A stretch of DNA of 64,000 bases, taken from Sinohyriopsis cumingii. Taxonomy: Eukaryota > Mollusca > Bivalvia > Unionida > Unionidae. Position 1 is the stretch's first letter. Every line of letters begins with the position of its first letter. This document shows, in pieces, positions 7,408 to 64,000 of this stretch. A program made the translations under genes and the position numbers. The notes beneath the pieces were generated by a model. It was not told the origin of the DNA. It saw nothing but the letters and a program-made list of their open reading frames with translations, and ran no database searches. The DNA lies in contig CM068839.1 in NCBI GenBank assembly GCA_028554795.2, positions 16,603,043 through 16,667,042 on the forward strand, given 5' to 3'.

Positions 7408-9006
7408 GTGAGATCTACTAAAATGCATGCCGTAAATGTTGCGCCGTATGAAACCATTACTATCAACGGCATTGCCCGCAGTGTTGATGCTCATATAGCA
7501 GAAGCAGTTAAAGAGAACATGGGAAACTATAAACAGGTTACGGTCTGTCCAAGGGTGATCAGGTTTGATCACAAGGGATCATATTTCAGGGTTCAGCTCA
7601 GACTTTGCAATATGTCCGCCAAAGGGGTGACAATAAGACCCAAATCAGATATATGTCTTATAAGTGAAGTCAAAGTTGTGGACAACTTAGCTTGTAACTT
7701 CATCCCTGACATGTCCAAAGACAGTGGACATTCCGCTCTGGAAGATTTGAAAGTTAAGATTGGTGTTGAAAATCTGAACCCAGAGCAACGGGACAGACTT
7801 AGGCAAGTATTGAGCAGGTGGGATTCCATATTTTCAAAGGGCCCCACAGATTTGGGAAAAACTGATTTAGTCAAGCATAAGATTGTGCTTGATGACGATA
7901 AACCGTTCAAACAGCCATACAGGAGGATACCGCCGGGGATGTATGAGGAGGTGCGTCAGCACATTAGGGAAATGTTAGATGCTGTCGCAATTATGGAATC
8001 TGACAGTCCCTATTCCTCGAATGTTGTGTTAGACCGGAAACGCGATAACAGCTTACGTTTCTGTATAGACCACAGGTCCCTCAATGCAAGGACCCGGAAT
8101 GATGCTTATATGCTTCCACGGTTTGACGATACAGTCGATGTCTTACAAGGGGCCAGGTTCTTCTCTAAGCTGGACCTTAGGTCTGGTTATTGGCAAGTTG
8201 AGATAGAAGAACAACATAGGGAATATACAGCCTTCTCGGTGGGTCCGCTCGGGTTTTACGAGGCGAACCGAATGAGTTTTGGTCTGTGCAACGCTGGGGC
8301 TAATTTCCAGCGTCTCATGGAGAAATGCATGAGAGAAATGAACCTCAAAGAGTGCCTCATCTTCATAGATGGCATTCTCATATTCTCCAGAACATTCGAC
8401 GAGTACATAGAACGGTTAGAAGCTGTGTTCGCACGCTTACATCACCACGGTCTTAAGTTGAAACCCTCTAAGTGCGAATTGTTCATGTCGTCAGTCGCTT
8501 ATCTGGGCCATGTTATATCGGAGGAAGGTATCAAGACCGACCCGGAAAAGACCTCTGCGATTAGGAATTGGCCAAAACCTAAAAACATTAAGGAGCTACG
8601 TCAGTTTTTAGGGTTCGCAGGATACTATCGCCGCTTTGTCGAGAGATTCTCGCAAATAGCACAACCATTAAACGCTCTTTTAGAGGGCCATGACACGACC
8701 AAGGCATATCGAAAGAATAAGTCCAAAAACAAACAAGCAGCTCCTTTGACTTCGGGCAATGCTCAAGAAACCTCTTTTTTGAATCTTATAGATAAGTTGA
8801 CTTCTGCCCCTATCTTAGCGTTTGCCGACTATGCTAAACCATTCATAGTGCATACGGATGCTAGCGGCTTTGGTTTAGGCGCTGTCCTATATCAAGAGCA
8901 AGAGGGGGTGAAAAGAGTAATTCCATACGCCAGTCGGGGGTTGAGACCTAGCGAACGACGCTATCCAGCTCACAAGCTCGAATTTTTGACGCTGGATGGA
9001 CCGTGA
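7408..9006 (+). pseudogene. Reverse transcriptase and start of RNase H (Ty3/Gypsy fossil)
   Basis: About 530 residues readable. Recognisable RT blocks in order: PYRRIPPGMYEEVRQHI, DNSLRFCIDHRSLNART, FSKLDLRSGYWQVEI, MSFGLCNAGANFQRLM, KPSKCELFMSSVAYLGHVIS and LRQFLGFAGYYRRFV. RNase H begins with HTDASGFGLGAVLYQEQEG and RRYPAHKLEFL. This is a Gypsy-type RT-RNase H. It ends where the opposite-strand element at 9013 begins. Fossil. Confidence 0.85.
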
Positions 9007-22283: not shown

Positions 22284-22300
22284 ATGGCAGATTCTGCTAA
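22271..22300 (+). other. Short upstream ORF overlapping the GOLGA2 start
   Basis: ATGGGGAAACAAG... encodes MGKQDGRFC and stops at TAA (22298-22300). It overlaps the main ATG (22284) in another frame. Its start has a weak context (C at -3, G at +4), whereas the main ATG has A at -3 and G at +4, so leaky scanning would be expected. Confidence 0.45.
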
Positions 22301-22331
22301 GAGAGAGAAGATAGCGGCAGCACGGAAAAAG
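22284..22331 (+). CDS. GOLGA2: GOLGA2 exon 1 (first coding exon)
   Basis: Encodes residues 1-16, MADSAKREKIAAARKK, then donor AAG|GTTTTT (phase 0). It matches the start of the p115-binding basic motif of GM130. ATG 22284 was chosen because it is in frame with that motif and has a good start context. The motif is completed by exon 2 about 8.5 kb away, so an essential motif is split across a very long intron. Confidence 0.85.
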
Positions 22332-33789: not shown

Positions 33790-34200
33790 CCTCACTGCAA
33801 AACCCCTCATTATACAGTATATAACTTGGGCATGAATAGACCCCTTTGTACCTGATATAATTTGACTTGATAAGACTCCATTGTACCTTAAATAACTTGC
33901 ATATGGATAAGACCCCACTGTACCTTAAATGACTTGCATATGGATAAGACTCCATCGTACCTTAAATAACTTGCATATGGATAAGACCCCACTGTACCAT
34001 ATATAATTTAACCGGATAAGACTACATTGTAACTTAGTAATGGACAAGACCCCATTGTACCTTATATAAAGTTGACTGTACACAAGGCCCAATTGTACCT
34101 CATATAGCTTGACTATACATAAGGCCCCAGTGTACCTTATATAACTTGACTATACATAAGATCCATGTACCTTGGATAATTTAGATATTTATAAGACGCT
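33790..34200. repeat. Minisatellite, about 40-bp unit, about ten copies
   Basis: Repeats of GGATAAGACCCCACTGTACC followed by TTATATAACTTG-like sequence, starting 25 bp after the exon 3 donor. Units differ by several bases. Confidence 0.85.
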
Positions 34201-36611: not shown

Positions 36612-36675
36612 AACAACAGCTTCCACTGAGAGTCTACAACAGTTGTCAAGACAAATAAATGGCCTACTAGCAGAG
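36612..36675 (+). CDS. GOLGA2: GOLGA2 exon 4
   Basis: Acceptor TCTTTTAG|AAC, donor GCAGAG|GTTTGT. Encodes Arg106 to Glu127: TTASTESLQQLSRQINGLLA then E, aligning with vertebrate FSSTESLRQLSQQLNGLV. This is a signature block of GM130. The last part of the exon and its donor are the source of the tandem array that follows immediately (36676-37380). Only the first donor keeps the frame, because the next codons read GTT TGT ATC TAC TGA. Confidence 0.9.
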
Positions 36676-37380
36676 GTTTGTATCTACTGATATAAATGGC
36701 CTAATAGCAGAGGATTGTATCTACTGATTTAAATGACCTACAAAGTTAAATGACCAACTCGCAGAGGATTGTATCAACTGATTTAAATGGCATAATAGCA
36801 GAGGATTGTATCTACTGATTTAAATGGCCTACTAGCAAAGGATTGTATCTACTGATTTAAATGGCCTACTAGCAGAGGATTGTATCTACCGATTTAAATG
36901 GCCTACTAGCAGAGGATTATATCTACTGATTTAAATGGCCTACTAGCAGAGGATTGTATCTACTGATTTAAATGGCCTACTAGCAGAGGTGTGTATCTGC
37001 TGATATAAATGGCCTAATACCAGAGCTTTGTATCTACTGATTTAAATGGCCTCATATCAAAGGTTTGTACCTACTGATTTGAATGGCCTACTAACAGAGG
37101 TTTGTATCTACTGATATAAATGGCCTACTAGCAGAGGTTTGTATCTACTGATTTAAATGGCCTACTAGCAGAGGTTTGTATCTTCTGATTTAAATGGCCT
37201 ACTAGCAGAGGTTTGTATCTACTGATTTAAATGGCCTACTAGCAGAGGTTTGTATCTACTGATATAAATGGCGTAATACCAGAGGTTTTTATCTACTGAA
37301 AAAGATGGCCTAATAGTAGAGGTTTGTATCTACTGTAATAAATGACCTACTGGCAGAGGTTTGTATCTATATATATAAAT
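36676..37380. repeat. Minisatellite built from the exon 4 splice donor (37-bp unit, about 19 copies)
   Basis: Starts at the exon 4-intron boundary. Each unit reads GTTTGTATCTACTGATTTAA, then ATGGCCTACTAGCAGAG; the second half is the 3' end of exon 4 and the first half begins with its GT donor. So every unit carries an exon-end/donor copy. Most copies keep CAGAG|GTTTGT or CAGAG|GATTGT. Confidence 0.95.
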
Positions 37381-38837
37381 GGCTTACACATATCTGTCAG
37401 CATTATCAGTAAAGTAATCAGTGTATCATACAACCAAATCTTGTCAACTTCCTAATGATGCCACATTTTTTATATGAAAATAAATTGTTTAAGAAAATAA
37501 TTGCCAGAAAAATCTCACTAAAGAATCCTCTTAAGCAGAGATGTGGATATGTATCATTTAACTTAAACAAGCTTGCATCAGCCAGGTCCATGTTCACTCT
37601 ACGTTATCAAATTTTTTCAACATTTACAGCAACTAAATGTCAGCAGTTTAAACGTGTAAACATTGCAGCCTTAACAAGAAATTGTTTTATTGCAGCCCAT
37701 TGAGTTAAAGTACTTTATGGCAGCCCATTGTGTTAGTCTTGTTTTATGATGGCCCATTGAGTTAAAGTCCTGTTTTATGGTTGCCTTTTGAGTTGAAGTC
37801 TTGTTTTATGGCAGCCCATTGAGTTAAAGTATTGTTTTATGGCAGCCCATTGAGTTAAAGTTCCCCCACATAAACAAGTATGGTCTAAACACATGGGTGT
37901 GTTTTATCAGTCCAGCTGTCAGCTGGCTGCTCCTTTTGTCTAGTGACGACTGATTGTCCACAATTAGTATGATTTATCATTCATGACATGATGTTTCCAT
38001 AGACTGTGTTGTAAACTGACCTGTGATAGTGAAACTGATGATGATAATGATGTTTCCCTTGCTTTGGTTCATGACACTTAATTGAGTTTTGAAATGAGGA
38101 TGTTTTTGGATATTGTTAATTTTGATAGTGACACTGATACACCTGTGATGCCAACAACTGAAATATAAATTTATTGTGCCATGAAGATGGTGTTTGTGAA
38201 ATTAGTGATCACCAAGAAACAACTGAGTTAATGAATAAAGACAGTTTCACATGAAAGGGATTTGATTGATTCACAAGCAAATATATGTACATGTACACTG
38301 ACACTTGTCCGGTTTTCTTTTCACTTCTTTTTCTAATCATGACAACCTGTATTTAAGCAACTGTATGCTGCTTGAAAATGCTGTTACCGCTACCTCTGAA
38401 TTCTGACAGTAATCATGCTCATATAAATTGTTTGCTACATGTATATCCAACCTCATCAATATTGACGAGCATTGCGCATTTTGAAAAATGTACAATTTGG
38501 ACATAATGTTTCTTGGTTATAATGTTTACAAAATCACAGACCCAGTGTTTACAAGTAATTGTTCAAATTATGCCCACAGTTTTGATATTTTGTGATATCA
38601 TTTGTATTATTGTTTAGTGGTCACTATTGCCAATAAACTTTTGTTTTGCTTTGTGGTGTCAGAATGTATTGTGATAGTTTGTTCCATTTATTGCAATAGT
38701 ATTCATTCCACAAGACATTGTTATATTCTTTATTGTTATATTCTAGAACAATCCCTGATAATATTGTTGATGGGTCGTCCTTTTTGATTTTACTGTATTC
38801 TTGTTGTGAATTATAACTTAATGTGTTTTTCTTTCAG
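37381..38837. other. Intron 4 remainder with a small tandem repeat
   Basis: 37684-37870 has about five copies of GTTTTATGGCAGCCCATTGA plus TTAAAGT (about 38 bp). The rest is unassigned. Confidence 0.6.
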
Positions 38838-38888
38838 ACAGATGCTGTAATGGATGATCAAGAAAATTCCAGTGTTGCTGAACTAGAG
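38838..38888 (+). CDS. GOLGA2: GOLGA2 exon 5
   Basis: Acceptor TTCTTTCAG|ACA, donor CTAGAG|GTACTC, phase 0 on both sides. Encodes residues 128-144, TDAVMDDQENSSVAELE, an acidic linker entering the first coiled coil (vertebrate SSANLKDLESRY region). Confidence 0.8.
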
Positions 38889-45889: not shown

Positions 45890-46625
45890 ATGTCTAATCC
45901 TGTTTAATGTACCTTATTCGATGTTCATCCTTTGATCTTGTTTAATGTACCTTATTCAACGTTCATTGCTTTAATCCAGTTTAATGATTTTTAATCTATG
46001 TTCTTCACTTTGACCATGATTAATATACCATAGCTTTATTCATCTCTTTGATCCTGTTTAATATACCATATTTCATGTTTATCTTTTTGATCCTTTTTTA
46101 ATTACCATATTCCATGTCCAGCCCTTTGATTTGTAATGTACCATATTCGGTGTTCATTTCATTGATCCTGTTTAATGTACTTTGTTCTATTTTCATCTCT
46201 TTCTACCTCTTTAATGTACCTTATTCTATTTTTATCTCTTTGATCCTCTTTAATGTCTTTTATTCGGGGGCCCTGAGTAGCCGAGTGGTCTAAAGCGCTC
46301 TCCGTTACGGATCACTGCCATCTCACCTCTGTCTGTGTGGGTTTGGCCAATGTGGGTATGTGAGAAAGCTTGCCAGTAGCTTCTTGTGTGTCGGTTCTTC
46401 CTGGGGTTTTCTCGGGTTCTTCCTCCACCATTAATACTGGCTACCGTGAATAGCCTATCATGTGCTGAAAAATGGCGTTAAACCCCACAACAACAACAAC
46501 AATGTCTCTTATTCTAAGTCCATCACTTTGAGCCTGTTAATGTACCATATTCAGTGTTTATCTCATGGTCCTGTTTAATGTACCTTATTTTGTGTTCATC
46601 ATTTTGATCCAGTTTAATGTACCAG
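45890..46625. repeat. Minisatellite, about 40-bp unit, interrupted by a SINE
   Basis: Repeats of TTGATCCTGTTTAATGTACC plus TTATTCxATGTTCATCTCTT. About nine copies lie before 46265 and three after 46501, with a family 1 SINE in between. Confidence 0.85.
46266..46500 (+). mobile_element. tRNA-derived SINE, family 1, copy 4
   Basis: GGGGGCCCTGAGTAGCCGAG, GTGGTCTAAAGCGCTCTCC, tail CAACAACAACAAC. Target duplication AATGTCTTTTATTC (46252-46265) versus AATGTCTCTTATTC (46501-46514), one difference. Confidence 0.9.
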
Positions 46626-47449
46626 ATTTCCCAAATCTTTAAATTCATCAGAATTCTTATTGCTTTTATTTTATCATTTTTCGTGTCTTTCTTGTTTGAT
46701 ACAAGTTACAAAATACAAATAACTAACCAATACAAGTTTTGCCATGAATTACACTTCTGTCTGAAATTTTTTATTAGCAGCTTCAAGTACCAGGGAAAAT
46801 TGCTGCAAACCCATGAAAAATGATGTAAATGATATACATTAACAATCATTACACCTTATTTTCACGAAACTTCTTGCAAACTGTTAGCAAAAATATAATA
46901 TGCCAAGATATTATGAGAGCATGCTTTGTTTGTATAATCAGCTGTGTAGCTCAAAACACTGATGATTACATTATGACATCATCTGTATTATATCACTTAC
47001 TACCTAGGTGTAGTACTATGAGTTATGGGAAAGATTCGTTATAAAAATTATCATGTTTTTGACATATATTTTATTTAGTAACGAAAAAAAATAATTCTTG
47101 TACAGTTCTTAAGTGGATTATATTGTCTTCTTAAATATTTGTTCATCTATTACTTTAATGGAAAATATAGCCATTTGATACTTTTTCCCATTATACTTAA
47201 TTATATAATGACCCTTGGTACCCTGAGGACTCTGAGGGCATTTTCAATGTCCCAAGGACTGCACCACCTTTGTTATCTCTCTTGACACCTTGTGATGCCA
47301 ACCATTTTGCAGACTACAGGATACAGCTTGGTGGGCCGCATGCAGCCCATGTGCCACGTATTTTAGACCATGGTATACATTGTGTTAAAAGTATTGCATA
47401 AAAATGCTCACCAAGATACGTGACATTGTATAAATATTTTATTGATTTT
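46626..47449. other. Intron 7 stretch: nothing recognised
   Basis: No supported feature. Confidence 0.5.
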
Positions 47450-48265
47450 CAGGTGGCAAAACAAGATTCATGACACTATGCACTTTTGCTTGATTTTGAA
47501 CAGGCACAACAAGATACATGACATTGTACACTTATTTAATTCTGAACAGGCACACCAAGATACATGACATTATACACACATTTATTTAATTCTGAACAGG
47601 CACACCAAGATAAATGACATTGTACACACTTTTATTTAATTTTGGGCTGGCACAACAAGATACATGACATTGTACACTTATTTAATTCTGAACAGGCACA
47701 CAAAGATACATGACACTGTACACACACTTATTTAATTCTGAACAGGCACACCAAGATAAATGACATTGTACACACTTTTATTTAATTTTGGGCTGGCACA
47801 ACAAGATACATGACATTGTACACTTATTTAATTCTGAACAGGCACACAAAGATACATGACATTGTACACACACTTATTTAATTCTGAACAGGCACACCAA
47901 GATAAATGACATTGTACACACTTTTATTTAATTTTGGGCTGGCACAACAAGATACATGACATTGTACACTTATTTAATTCTGAACAGGCACACAAAGATA
48001 CATGACATTGTACACACATTTATTTAATTCTGAACAGGCACACCAAGATAAATGACATTGTACACACTTTTATTTAATTTTGGGCTGGCACAACAAGATA
48101 CATGACATTGTACACTTATTTAATTCTGAACAGGCACACAAAGATACATGACATTGTACACACACTTATTTAATTCTGAACAGGCACACCAAGATAAATG
48201 ACATTGTACACACTTTTATTTAATTTTGGGCTGGCACAACAAGATACATGACATTGTATACACTT
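47450..48265. repeat. Higher-order minisatellite: 146-bp units made of three about 48-bp subunits
   Basis: GGGCTGGCAC occurs at 47644, 47790, 47936, 48082 and 48228, exactly 146 bp apart. Each 146-bp unit holds three variants of a GGCACACxAAGATACATGAC plus ATTGTACAC..TTATTTAATTxTG subunit. The array ends about 125 bp before exon 8. Confidence 0.95.
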
Positions 48266-48391
48266 TTAATTGATTTTGGGTTGCTTAGACTATTGGACAT
48301 GCATGCATCATGAATGTACTGACTAATCAAGTTCTGTGGTATTCACTTGAAGTTGTGTCAAGATATTATTCATAACCTTGATGCATTACAG

Positions 48392-52278: not shown

Positions 52279-52339
52279 TAAATCCCTGGAAGAACTGAGG
52301 CAGCAGACATCAGAATTACAAGAAAAATTACAGTCAAAG
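52279..52339 (+). CDS. GOLGA2: GOLGA2 exon 11
   Basis: Acceptor TTTTTTCCCAG|TAA, donor TCAAAG|GTAAAA. Encodes Asn289 (split) to Lys309: KSLEELRQQTSELQEKLQSK (vertebrate SNEDLKQEKSELEEKL). Its last 15-20 bases plus donor are the source of the tandem array that follows (52340-54790). Confidence 0.9.
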
Positions 52340-52408
52340 GTAAAATGGGTTTTAATTATTTCATATAAATTACATTCAAAGGTAAAGGGATTTTCATTAT
52401 ACCATATA

Positions 52409-52722
52409 CCGCTCCAGTGGCCTAGTGGTTAGAGCATCCGCCTTGGATGCGGGAGGTCGTGGGTTCGATCCCCGTCCGAGTCATACCAAAGACTTACAAA
52501 AATGGTACTAACAGCTGCCTCGCTTGGCGCTCAGCATTAAGAGGTCAGTGTTAGGACTGGTCAGCCTGGTGTCAGAATAATGTGACTGGGTGGGACATCA
52601 TACTACATGTCTGCAGCATGATGCCCCAGTGCTAGACATCACTATAAACTGCCACACTGCAGACATCTTAGCAATATGACTGAAAAATTGTTAAAGCTAC
52701 ATTAAAAATTCACATCACGTCA
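52409..52722 (+). mobile_element. tRNA-derived SINE, family 2, copy 4 (best preserved)
   Basis: GGCCTAGTGGTTAGAGCATC (A-box), GGTTCGATCCC (B-box) and GTCCGAGTCATACC form a tRNA-like head. The body carries ACAGCTGCCTCGCTTGGCGC and CTGCAGCATGATGCC, and the tail CACATCACGTCA. Target duplication of 14 bp, CATTATACCATATA, at 52395-52408 and 52723-52736, inside the exon 11 minisatellite. Confidence 0.93.
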
Positions 52723-52811
52723 CATTATACCATATAAATTACATTCAAAGGTAGAGGGATTTTCATTAGACCATATAAATTACATTCAAAGGTAAAGGGA
52801 TTTTAATTATA

Positions 52812-54726
52812 CAGTGTGGCCCCGCTATAACACGGTAGTTGGGAGCCATAAAATCCAACTGCGTTATATACCGAATCATGTTATATGCAACCAAGTCAAT
52901 TAGCTGAAGAAAATGTTACCCTCCCCCCAAAAAAAAAAAAATTGTGGGGTGTGTGTGTGTGTGGGGGGGTAATAAATGCGGGTGGTAAAATATATGCTTC
53001 GTCGGCACAGTTACCATCTTGAATTGATGCATATTAAATGAGAAATACACCTGTAGTGAAAACAGAGAAGACATAATATAATAGTTTACTTTATTTAGAG
53101 AACCATGAATTGGTACATATACGTGAATCCTGTTTATATATAAATGTCTAATGTATAGCATGAATAGAGTATCAACACCGTGTATTCACCTGCGAACCTC
53201 ATCATATACATTGAATCCACAATATAAGTGATTCCATTGAAAATATGCACACACAGCTTTAAAATATTCATTAATTTTGTAACAGGTCATATTGGTCTGA
53301 ATTCATTAGAAAAACTTAGCACAATCATGTAACTAATGACGAAGCACATTTATTTTAAAGTACGTTCCAAGTCGGTAAAAATTGGTTTGAGTTTTAAGAT
53401 AAACTTTATGCCTACAAAAAGGAAACTTTCACAGCACAGTTAACGTGTTCCAGTCACGTTGGAAAATGCAAAATTCCATCAGATTCCATCACTTTTATTT
53501 ATATTTGGTACTGACTTCCTTTGAAGAAAAGTTCTTTGCTGTTATTAAAAGATGGTAGTCAGCTTTCTTTGATGACAGGTGCATGCGCTATTAAAGTCAC
53601 CATTAAAGGACAGCTTTGGAGAACCAAACGAATGCCCATTTCTTATTGTGGCGGCAACATAAAAAAACTGTATTGCATGATTGAGACTGGTATGTTTTCC
53701 ATTTGCCGAGTATGTTTTCATAATAGTCGGTGCTTCAAAGGTAATCATTTCCTTTGAAATTTCAGCAAACTATTTTATCTGCTGAATAAACCAATAAGTA
53801 AGATGTATTTTTTTCTTTTTTCTGTTAACATTTGTGGTAGTAGCATGATGCTGCCTTCCACGCTTGCATCTGAAAATTAACAAAGGGTCAACGGACGATA
53901 CAGACGTAGGTGTTCTGATGACAGGGATTATTACAGAAAATGTGAGCATTCTGAAGGATTTAATTCTGAGTGAAATGAAGAGGAATTTTACTTACCATCC
54001 ACATACAAATGACAGTCTTTGTAAATATATTAATTACTAGCGAGCGGCTGAAAATCCGATGAAAGATAGATTACGAGACAATGCCTCGTCCGGTTGATCT
54101 ACATTACCAGAAATGTAAACAACAAAAAAAGCGGATATTTCAAAACATACAGAACTCATGCTAGATGTCAGGATAAGCGGATTATGATACAACAATGCAC
54201 TGTTTAGATGGTTTGTCAGTATGGACAAAGAATTTGTTTATGTAACAATAGATAAATTTCAGTGCATTTTATATCCAGTTTGCGGCTTCCTTTCATGGTG
54301 CCTCTGAATTTCTGCACTCCAAACCAATGGTTGTATATCAAAGTTTAAACAGCCAACAATGTCGCCAACAAATAAAAAAAGCCACATGGTATGTTTTGCA
54401 GCCAATAGGGAAAAACAATCCAAGTTTGCAACATTGGCAAAGACCAACGCGATTCCAGAATAAACTTTTTATGCGTTTTTTCTTCTTACTTTTATATATA
54501 TAAAAAAATACTTTTTCATGTATGAGAAAATTTCAGGAGCCAAGCCACGATTGTCTTGTATTATTCATACGCGATCTCTTCCCCAAAAGGATAAGCAACT
54601 TTTTACGTTTTTTATCGTACTTTTTAAAAAAGGAATTTGTGCACAAGAAAAATACATGTATATGAAATTTCGGGAGCCATGCCATGATCGCGTTATATCG
54701 GAACGCGCTATAGCAGGGTCAGACTG
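52812..54726. mobile_element. 1.9-kb TIR element with TA target site (pogo/Tigger-like, non-autonomous)
   Basis: Left end CAGTGTGGCCCCGCTATAAC and right end (reverse complement) CAGTCTGACCCTGCTATAGC. TA flanks both ends (52810-52811, 54727-54728). A minisatellite unit is split precisely at the TA, which proves the boundaries. CAG ends plus TA target suit the pogo/Tigger branch of Tc1/mariner. No transposase recognised. A GGGAGCCAxGCCA block of the right end is duplicated (about 54535 and 54670). Confidence 0.85.
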
Positions 54727-54790
54727 TACCATATAAATTACATTCAAAGGTAAATGGGTTTTAATTATACCATAAAAATTACATTCTGAG

Positions 54791-55560
54791 TTAAAGGGAT
54801 TTGTAATTACACAACTTACAAAGACATGTCCCAACCATTGAAATTTCATTTCTGCTCACTAACATTAGAAGGACTGCATGGATTGTAACAAAATTTGATG
54901 AAAGGCTTTACATTAAAAAGACCAAGGCCAAAGGTGATTTTTCACCATTTTGTGACAATATTTAATGGAGTCATGACTTCTATTCAACTTAGAACATTGT
55001 GCTTTAAATTCATCAGAAGTCATATTGATCCATATCAAATTGCAAAATGTGTGATATCAGTGTATTGACAAATCAAAAAGGCAGTCAAGTATTATTTCAT
55101 TTTAAATTAATATACAGTGTAGATTGTAATTTACATATGATAAAGATATTAAATTCAATAGAAGCACCTGTCCAAAACGTTCTTCATCACCTTCATGTGG
55201 CATGCGTACATTGTGGGCAGAAAACATTTGGTCATTGTTGAGAAAAGGCAATTGAAGGTTCAAGATGAAAGGGCACAAAGTATTAGGCATTCATCCTAAT
55301 TCCAAGTCTTTGGTGAGTTGTATGTATGAACATTAAGATGACACCCCCATCTCCAACAAAGATATGTAAAACGGCAAACTGCAGTGACAGTTTGTCCTGA
55401 TGCCATTGAAGCTACACCACTCATGTATTGAATCCTGTATGATAGATGGACTACAACATTATCTGTAACAAGCTTTGTCATCAAGCTAATTGGATGAAAC
55501 CAAGACCATTCTTTATCCAGTATGGCAGTCCACTGTGAACAAGTTCCAAGCCCAGGACAT
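54791..55560. other. Intron 11 stretch: no gene recognised
   Basis: TxxAACATTxG-rich, unassigned; may be decayed repeat. Confidence 0.45.
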
Positions 55561-63309: not shown

Positions 63310-63359
63310 GTATGTCAGTCATTTCACCGTAATCATTACCATAACTTGTTTTTATTGGC

Positions 63360-64000
63360 GTGTAATAATGTACATTGTTTGTTATAGGCTTATAATAATG
63401 TATGTAAAATTTGTGGTGGACTTGTAATAAAGTACATAAAGTTTGGGATAGGCTTGTAATGTACATAAAGTTTGTGATGGGCTTGTAATGTACATAAAGT
63501 TTGTGATAGGCTTGTAATAATGTACATAAAGTTTGTGATGGGCTTGTAATGTACATAAAGTTTGGGATAGGCTTGTTATAATGTACATAAAGTTTGGGAT
63601 AGGCTTGTAATGTACATAAAGTTTGGGATAGGCTTGTAATAATGTACGTAGAGTTTGTGACAGGCATGCAATATTGTACACAAATGTTTGTGATGGGCTT
63701 GTAATAATGCACACAAATGTTTGTGACAAGCATATACTCCTGTACATAAAGTTTGTGACAGGTTAGTAATAATGTACACAAAAGTTTGCAACAGGCTTGT
63801 AATAATTTACATAAAGTTTGTGATGCACTTGTAATAATGTACACAAGTGGTTGTGATGGGCTTGTAATAATTTACATAAAGTTTGTGACAGGCATGTAAT
63901 AATGTACACAAATGGTTGTGATGGGCTTGTAATAATGTACATAAAGTTTTGTGACAGGCTAGTAATAATGTACACAAAAGTTTGTGACAGGCTTGTAATA
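63360..64000. repeat. Minisatellite after exon 14, about 31-36-bp unit, runs off the edge
   Basis: About eighteen units of GTACATAAAGTTTGTGATGG plus GCTTGTAATAAT, starting about 50 bp after the exon 14 donor and continuing beyond 64000. Two lengths alternate, with and without an extra AATAAT. Confidence 0.95.

Follow-up and report, generated by a model that had tools for sequence, protein, structure and literature searches.

A minisatellite in the GOLGA2 gene of the bivalve Sinohyriopsis cumingii is built from tandem copies of the gene's own exon–intron junction. It comprises 19 full units of 37 bp on the forward strand (36655–37374), the first of which is the real exon end and intron start. 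Coordinates refer to the window, the whole analysed stretch of 64,000 nucleotides, unless another locus is given. The array is real, and it is a junction minisatellite of the mirage type, a kind that has already been described in amphioxus. It is quite probably a by-product of tandem duplication that is removed with the intron and tolerated, and not a switch. New beyond the 37-bp array are a second GOLGA2 donor array (at donor 52340) and, outside the window, a probable acceptor array as well as donor arrays at two junctions of what is probably a single myosin gene.

The GOLGA2 locus and its 37-bp array

The gene lies on the forward strand and runs from an apparent first coding exon (22284–22331, MADSAKREKIAAARKK) past the end of the window. 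By protein similarity it is GOLGA2, as an earlier note on this DNA had named it. The name rests on a search with the joined partial protein, which matched GOLGA2 of many animals (72 proteins reported) and was sensitive only to proteins of 0.55–1.75 times the query length, so that it may have missed full-length relatives. Molluscs provided the best named matches: GOLGA2 of Elysia marginata shares 53% identity across 96% of the query, and that of Dreissena polymorpha 53% across 65%; the brachiopod Lingula ranks after these two. A Pfam scan of a 203-residue spliced piece returned no family, and a PDB search with the spliced piece gave only two weak, unrelated matches (E 0.2 and 0.28). Exons are numbered as in the earlier note; no exon 3 was found, and other exons were possibly missed.

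The array starts within exon 4 (36612–36675, forward strand), which is 64 nt long, reads TTASTESLQQLSRQINGLLAE, and ends in phase 0. Its real 5′ splice site, GAG/GTTTGT, lies at 36676–36677; the following exon, also of phase 0 (38838–38888, forward strand, TDAVMDDQENSSVAELE), continues the reading frame. The splice sites of exon 4 and of the intron between the two exons (36676–38837) were read directly. Each 37-bp unit consists of the last 21 bases of the exon and the first 16 bases of the intron and thus spans donor 36676. The earlier note had correctly recognized that the unit joins exon end and intron start, but its division into 17–18 exon and about 19 intron bases has to be replaced by 21 and 16.

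Tandem Repeats Finder reports two rows of period 37 (36655–36740 and 36746–37387) and an overlapping row of period 91. Combined with an in-register reading, this gives the 19 full units, in agreement with the roughly 19 repeats that had been noted directly after the donor. The units start at 36655, at 36692, and then every 37 bp from 36746 through 37338; units 2 and 3 are separated by a 17-bp partial unit (36729–36745), and beyond 37374 the array ends in a short partial tail. Identity to unit 1 ranges from 84 to 100%, with unit 13 being identical to it. Chance is excluded for this array, since the best match among 200 shuffles of the unit in the surrounding 2 kb reached only 23/37.

The row of 5′ splice sites that had been described is present only in part, with GT retained at the junction in 11 of the 19 units, namely the real donor and 10 of the 18 downstream copies. 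The nearest seven copies, units 2–8, carry GA instead and form a single contiguous block (36692–36967, forward strand, including the 17-bp partial unit). Units 9–19 (36968–37374, forward strand) keep GT in 10 of 11 cases by donor scoring, the exception being unit 10 with CT.

The exon end that is repeated, INGLLAE, is conserved in the protein alignment (INGLLLE in Elysia, INGLLSQ in Lingula). The exon therefore predates the array, which arose from it. Searches of the 2.9-Gb genome (1138 contigs; one candidate place scored per search, very common words skipped) with units 1–2 plus flank and with units 14–16 gave nine matches each, all at the GOLGA2 locus. A better match to a dispersed satellite elsewhere, which the earlier note had named as grounds against an exonic origin, did not appear in these searches. 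With its exon end conserved and its unit found only at GOLGA2, the array grew from the exon junction, as that note had proposed.

Junction arrays elsewhere in GOLGA2 and at myosin junctions

Twenty-five junctions of the window (13 donors and 12 acceptors) were tested for local copies of the surrounding 60 bases. Donors 36676 and 52340 stood out with scores of 48 and 39, and the other 23 junctions scored 20 or lower. The maximum of 150 shuffled 60-mers was 24. A second control of 150 random window places gave a 90th percentile of 31 and a 95th of 47; random places score this high because about a tenth of the GOLGA2 gene (10.0%) is covered by tandem arrays, which tells against giving weight to the number of junction arrays. 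In a gapless version of the test, donor 36676 reached 36/36 and donor 52340 only 27/36, below the random-place 90th percentile of 29.1, because the first copy of the second array contains a one-base indel.

Donor 52340 ends a later GOLGA2 exon (labelled E11, 52279–52339, forward strand, splice sites read directly). The second array (52325–52408, forward strand), identified by Tandem Repeats Finder and the 60-base test, has a 41-bp unit of 15 exon and 26 intron bases, with a first copy of 42 bases. Its donor copy at 52382 is intact and scores 7.4, compared to 7.0 for the real donor; its use is predicted to add 14 codons in frame and no stop. Tandem Repeats Finder places further copies of the unit at 52723–52809, set apart from the first by a stretch with tRNA-like sequence, and the last copies at 54727–54809, set apart by an insert with 25-bp inverted ends (both forward strand). 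Three genome matches were found for the 41-bp unit, only in the GOLGA2 gene.

Two features of this intron were noted on the side. The tRNA-like sequence (GGCCTAGTGGTTAGAGCATCCGCC...GGTTCGATCCCCGTCCGAGTCATACC, about 52408–52722) is probably a SINE of a kind known from molluscs, and a similar start occurs near position 8448 of locus L012, the downstream part of GOLGA2 past the window. The insert (52810–54728) has inverted ends that are alike at 20 of 25 positions, TA included, and resembles a DNA transposon or a remnant of one.

Nine junctions past the window, three of them centred 1–3 bases off, were tested in addition. One acceptor scored 42 and the other eight 16 or lower, against a shuffle maximum of 27. 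The array at this probable acceptor is clear as a repeat, with 2.8 copies of a 63-bp unit (L012 8179–8355, G000:C16:16685179-16685355). It precedes an open stretch between AG and GT (8325–8398, TPSGSDKISRREYEQVKQAMEMIQ), which was compared with 12 relatives. It aligned best to a human isoform, in the position expected for it, but 19 of 300 shuffles did equally well. By this comparison, the stretch is no more than a probable GOLGA2 exon; the repeat would then be a third array of the gene, located at an acceptor. The middle copy of the 63-bp array also reads ATCAGTAAGTG, a donor-like word.

Tandem arrays are frequent in this genome, with 15 arrays of about three or more copies (unit 20–110 bp) in 15 random 10-kb stretches, and denser in the GOLGA2 span, at 2.16 such arrays per 10 kb compared to 1.0. 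Other minisatellites with units of 30–50 bp lie in this span at 33869–34160, 45897–46628, 47409–48275, and 63357–64000. If the 22 arrays of this 60-kb span had random starting points, founding units would be expected to cover 0.29 of 34 junctions. Leaving out the 37-bp array that drew attention, the chance of one further certain case is about 0.25 by the same formula, and two or more further cases, with the probable acceptor array counted, give p 0.035. On these two values, a bias of arrays toward junctions is not established.

Myosin genes provided a second family. Searching the genome for the myosin head returned 71 matches, of which 40, hand-chosen among those without internal stops, supplied 80 junction regions near match ends, which are putative junctions. 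Three of the first 40 regions exceeded the shuffled maximum of 15 (L033, L035, and L042), and four of the other 40 exceeded a maximum of 17 (L069, L067, L055, and L065). On inspection by eye and a retest, donor junction arrays are present in two of the 80 regions. In L033, the exon end CTATTACTATCTCACACAG is copied past the donor with a period of 19 bp, and the intact GT that results 19 nt past the real donor would shift the frame. L065 has a 51-bp unit in which 12 exon and 13 intron bases match at 23 of 25 positions. For both, 0 of 1000 shuffles were as good. They lie within 35 kb on one strand of contig C5 (G000:C5, about 155.74–155.78 Mb) and are probably parts of a single myosin gene. In GOLGA2 as in myosin, the unit of every donor junction array found is the junction at which that array lies.

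The remaining candidates were rejected. L042 is an AT run, and in L055, L067, and L069, inspection by eye shows an array next to the exon without the junction in it. In L035, the intron side is repeated including the AG, but the exon side does not rise above shuffles (anchored, 372 of 500 as good). In its 57-bp array (G000:C18, about 22.07 Mb), the unit stops precisely at the AG that forms the acceptor of a myosin exon.

Splicing of the array and competing explanations

Donor strength was scored with human donor frequencies. On this scale, the real donor 36676 reaches 4.6 bits, which is moderate among the donors of the GOLGA2 gene, and unit 9 carries the best donor-like site of the intron with 8.5 bits; unit 11 scores 5.4. 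Seven further downstream units equal the real donor. Scored unit by unit, as the earlier note had suggested, half of the downstream copies (9 of 18) thus match or surpass the real donor, while eight lack GT and unit 17 is weaker at 0.5. Sites of this strength are not rare, with 300 of the 3793 GT dinucleotides in the window scoring as high as the real donor. A second GT, four bases on in each unit, was discarded at −0.1 or lower in all units, and recursive splicing through the AG/GT of each unit was set aside on reading the sequence, as the AG lacks a preceding pyrimidine tract. Use of any of the 18 downstream donor positions would bring an in-frame TGA (36688–36690, forward strand) into the mRNA as the fifth inserted codon; the premature stop that had been predicted for later donors is borne out.

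The by-product reading would proceed as follows. A short tandem duplication probably happened to span the exon–intron boundary of GOLGA2, and the duplicated unit would then have expanded through ordinary minisatellite turnover. Only the intron side was open to growth, since any copy ahead of the real donor would alter the protein, and the intronic copies are most likely removed together with the intron. The first donor is probably the one used, on the principle of exon definition: it alone belongs to the 64-nt exon, and the first intact decoy lies 313 nt away and would produce an exon of 377 nt. Occasional use of a decoy would yield an early-stop mRNA, which is expected to be destroyed by nonsense-mediated decay (NMD), the established pathway that removes such messages, so that the array would be at most a slight cost. 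Donor strength does not explain correct splicing, since half of the downstream copies score at least as high. Position alone need not favor the first site either, since the choice between neighboring competing sites is also affected by factors bound just upstream: in human DOK7, SRSF1 bound immediately upstream is reported to suppress the intron-distal (upstream) donor (PMC5585400). Repeat units of human IFI6 are reported as used donors (PMC4526556), so use of the GOLGA2 copies is possible. We nevertheless infer normal splicing and no function for the array. Its anatomy, its origin from the junction, the in-frame stop, and the occurrence of further junction arrays in this genome are shown by the sequence.

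The copies themselves show no coding or splice constraint by divergence of their parts, codon position, or loss of GT. Compared with the consensus, units 2–19 differ at 7.9% of positions in the exon-derived part and at 7.6% in the intron-derived part. Changes in the exon part fall on codon positions 1, 2, and 3 in 21, 5, and 4 cases, so that an excess at third positions is absent, and GT is lost in 8 of the 18 downstream copies. A structural role as an RNA hairpin was rejected because the predicted stability is ordinary (z −0.09 for 789 nt with 20 shuffles; z 0.84 for 149 nt with 200 shuffles). The equal divergence of exon and intron parts and the ordinary folding point to neutral turnover.

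The contiguous GA block is not an obvious product of such turnover and could reflect selection against near decoys. An alternative built on it holds that the array is harmless only because selection keeps the nearest copies dead, with one intact donor, the real one, within about 310 nt; we consider this unlikely. The donor-killing T-to-A change is limited to units 2–8, which adjoin the real donor (longest-run permutation, p 0.0002; p 0.0014 for the complementary run of T in that column), and the frequent variants of three other tested columns are scattered in the same test (p 0.13 to 0.90). At the other 36 positions, the GA units differ from each other by a mean of 3.05 and from GT units 9 and 11–16 by 2.98; being no closer to each other than to the GT units, they are not marked as a separate lineage. 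The near decoy of the second array, intact yet harmless by its frame, would also fit. Against this, the pattern comes from one array and was examined post hoc, and the same picture would result if one consensus-like GA unit had expanded locally and its copies had then acquired private changes. The intact GT in myosin L033 would moreover shift the frame. It is similarly doubtful that a broader rule applies, by which junction minisatellites recur in this genome, several of them in some genes, with near decoys purged or kept in frame, and the GA block would be a trace of selection on splice-site choice.

The function proposed in the earlier note is somewhat less likely still. In a splicing decoy or NMD switch, the downstream donors would be in competition with the real donor; the fraction of mRNA carrying the early TGA would then determine the level of GOLGA2, with array length as the tuning element. 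The inclusion of the TGA from all 18 downstream positions fits this proposal, as does the number of decoys that match or exceed a real donor of only moderate strength (human frequencies). The reported donor use from the IFI6 repeat (PMC4526556) and the statement that mirage copies could serve as cryptic sites (PMC3087553) would also agree with it. The copies are unconstrained, however, and the seven nearest donors are dead. In the second array, the nearest decoy would give an in-frame insert of 14 residues, so a stop is not a common property of these arrays, and published mirages are reported to be spliced normally (PMC3087553, PMC3902484). Together with the ordinary RNA folding, this leaves the proposed switch unsupported. 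An insertion of a dispersed satellite or mobile repeat next to the exon, with the resemblance to the exon being secondary, is highly improbable despite the richness of this genome in minisatellites. Both genome searches, which skipped very common words, met only the GOLGA2 locus, the end of the exon codes for protein and is conserved in relatives, and the donor junction arrays found are each built from their own junction.

Known junction minisatellites and significance

The closest parallel to the GOLGA2 array is the mirages of amphioxus, minisatellites across exon–intron boundaries that are described for Adh3, the globins BflGb6 and BflGb9, troponin C, and PGBD5 (PMC3087553, PMC3902484). As in the mirages, the tandem copies of GOLGA2 span an exon–intron boundary, and the 37-bp unit falls within the 10–72 bp reported for Adh3 (PMC3087553). 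Globin mirage units are longer, at 150–160 bp according to the same report. AG/GT is described there in many but not all mirage copies, and the splice signal is likewise kept in many, but not all, of the GOLGA2 copies (GT in 11 of 19). Either boundary, 5′ or 3′, can carry a mirage (PMC3087553); in GOLGA2, donors 36676 and 52340 carry junction arrays at the 5′ boundary, and the 63-bp array lies ahead of a probable GOLGA2 exon. The GOLGA2 array differs in belonging to another gene and, by its molluscan protein matches, to another phylum. Mirages of amphioxus are further reported to have a homogenized center and less homogenized edges. This pattern is not clear in GOLGA2, where identity to unit 1 is 84–86% in units 17–19 at the far edge but equally low, at 84%, in units 3 and 11. 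Mirage length is reported to vary between haplotypes (PMC3087553) and even somatically. Data on Adh3 and RT-PCR are reported to suggest that regular splicing is undisturbed by mirages (PMC3087553, PMC3902484), although copies with AG/GT could nevertheless act as cryptic sites (PMC3087553).

Two other systems share single features with the array. Like the human IFI6 minisatellite, the GOLGA2 array carries a splice donor in its repeat unit, which places several donors in a row. Turri et al. reportedly described the multiple splice donor sites of IFI6 (6-16) in 1995. In that gene, two downstream repeat units are reported to serve as donors, giving three mRNAs (PMC4526556), whereas a downstream donor of GOLGA2, if used, would add a stop. 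The Rogers model explains intron gain through tandem duplication of AG/GT sites (PMC3087553), and a potato RdRp gene is reported as a case of intron gain by tandem duplication (PMC4974935). In GOLGA2, tandem duplication multiplies splice sites in the same way, but the copies lie inside an existing intron, and no new intron or exon has formed. A literature search found no mollusc report of junction minisatellites, which is thin evidence of absence.

The choice of the spliceosome among many identical donors is usually studied in minigenes. In GOLGA2, a conserved gene, 11 copies of a single junction with GT stand in one array, and the nearest copy of a second array in the gene is intact and in frame. 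RNA from this animal would allow the choice to be measured directly. The same structure outside amphioxus, found here in two sampled gene families of one genome, suggests that genomes rich in minisatellites yield such arrays as a by-product, and that they are not a peculiarity of amphioxus.
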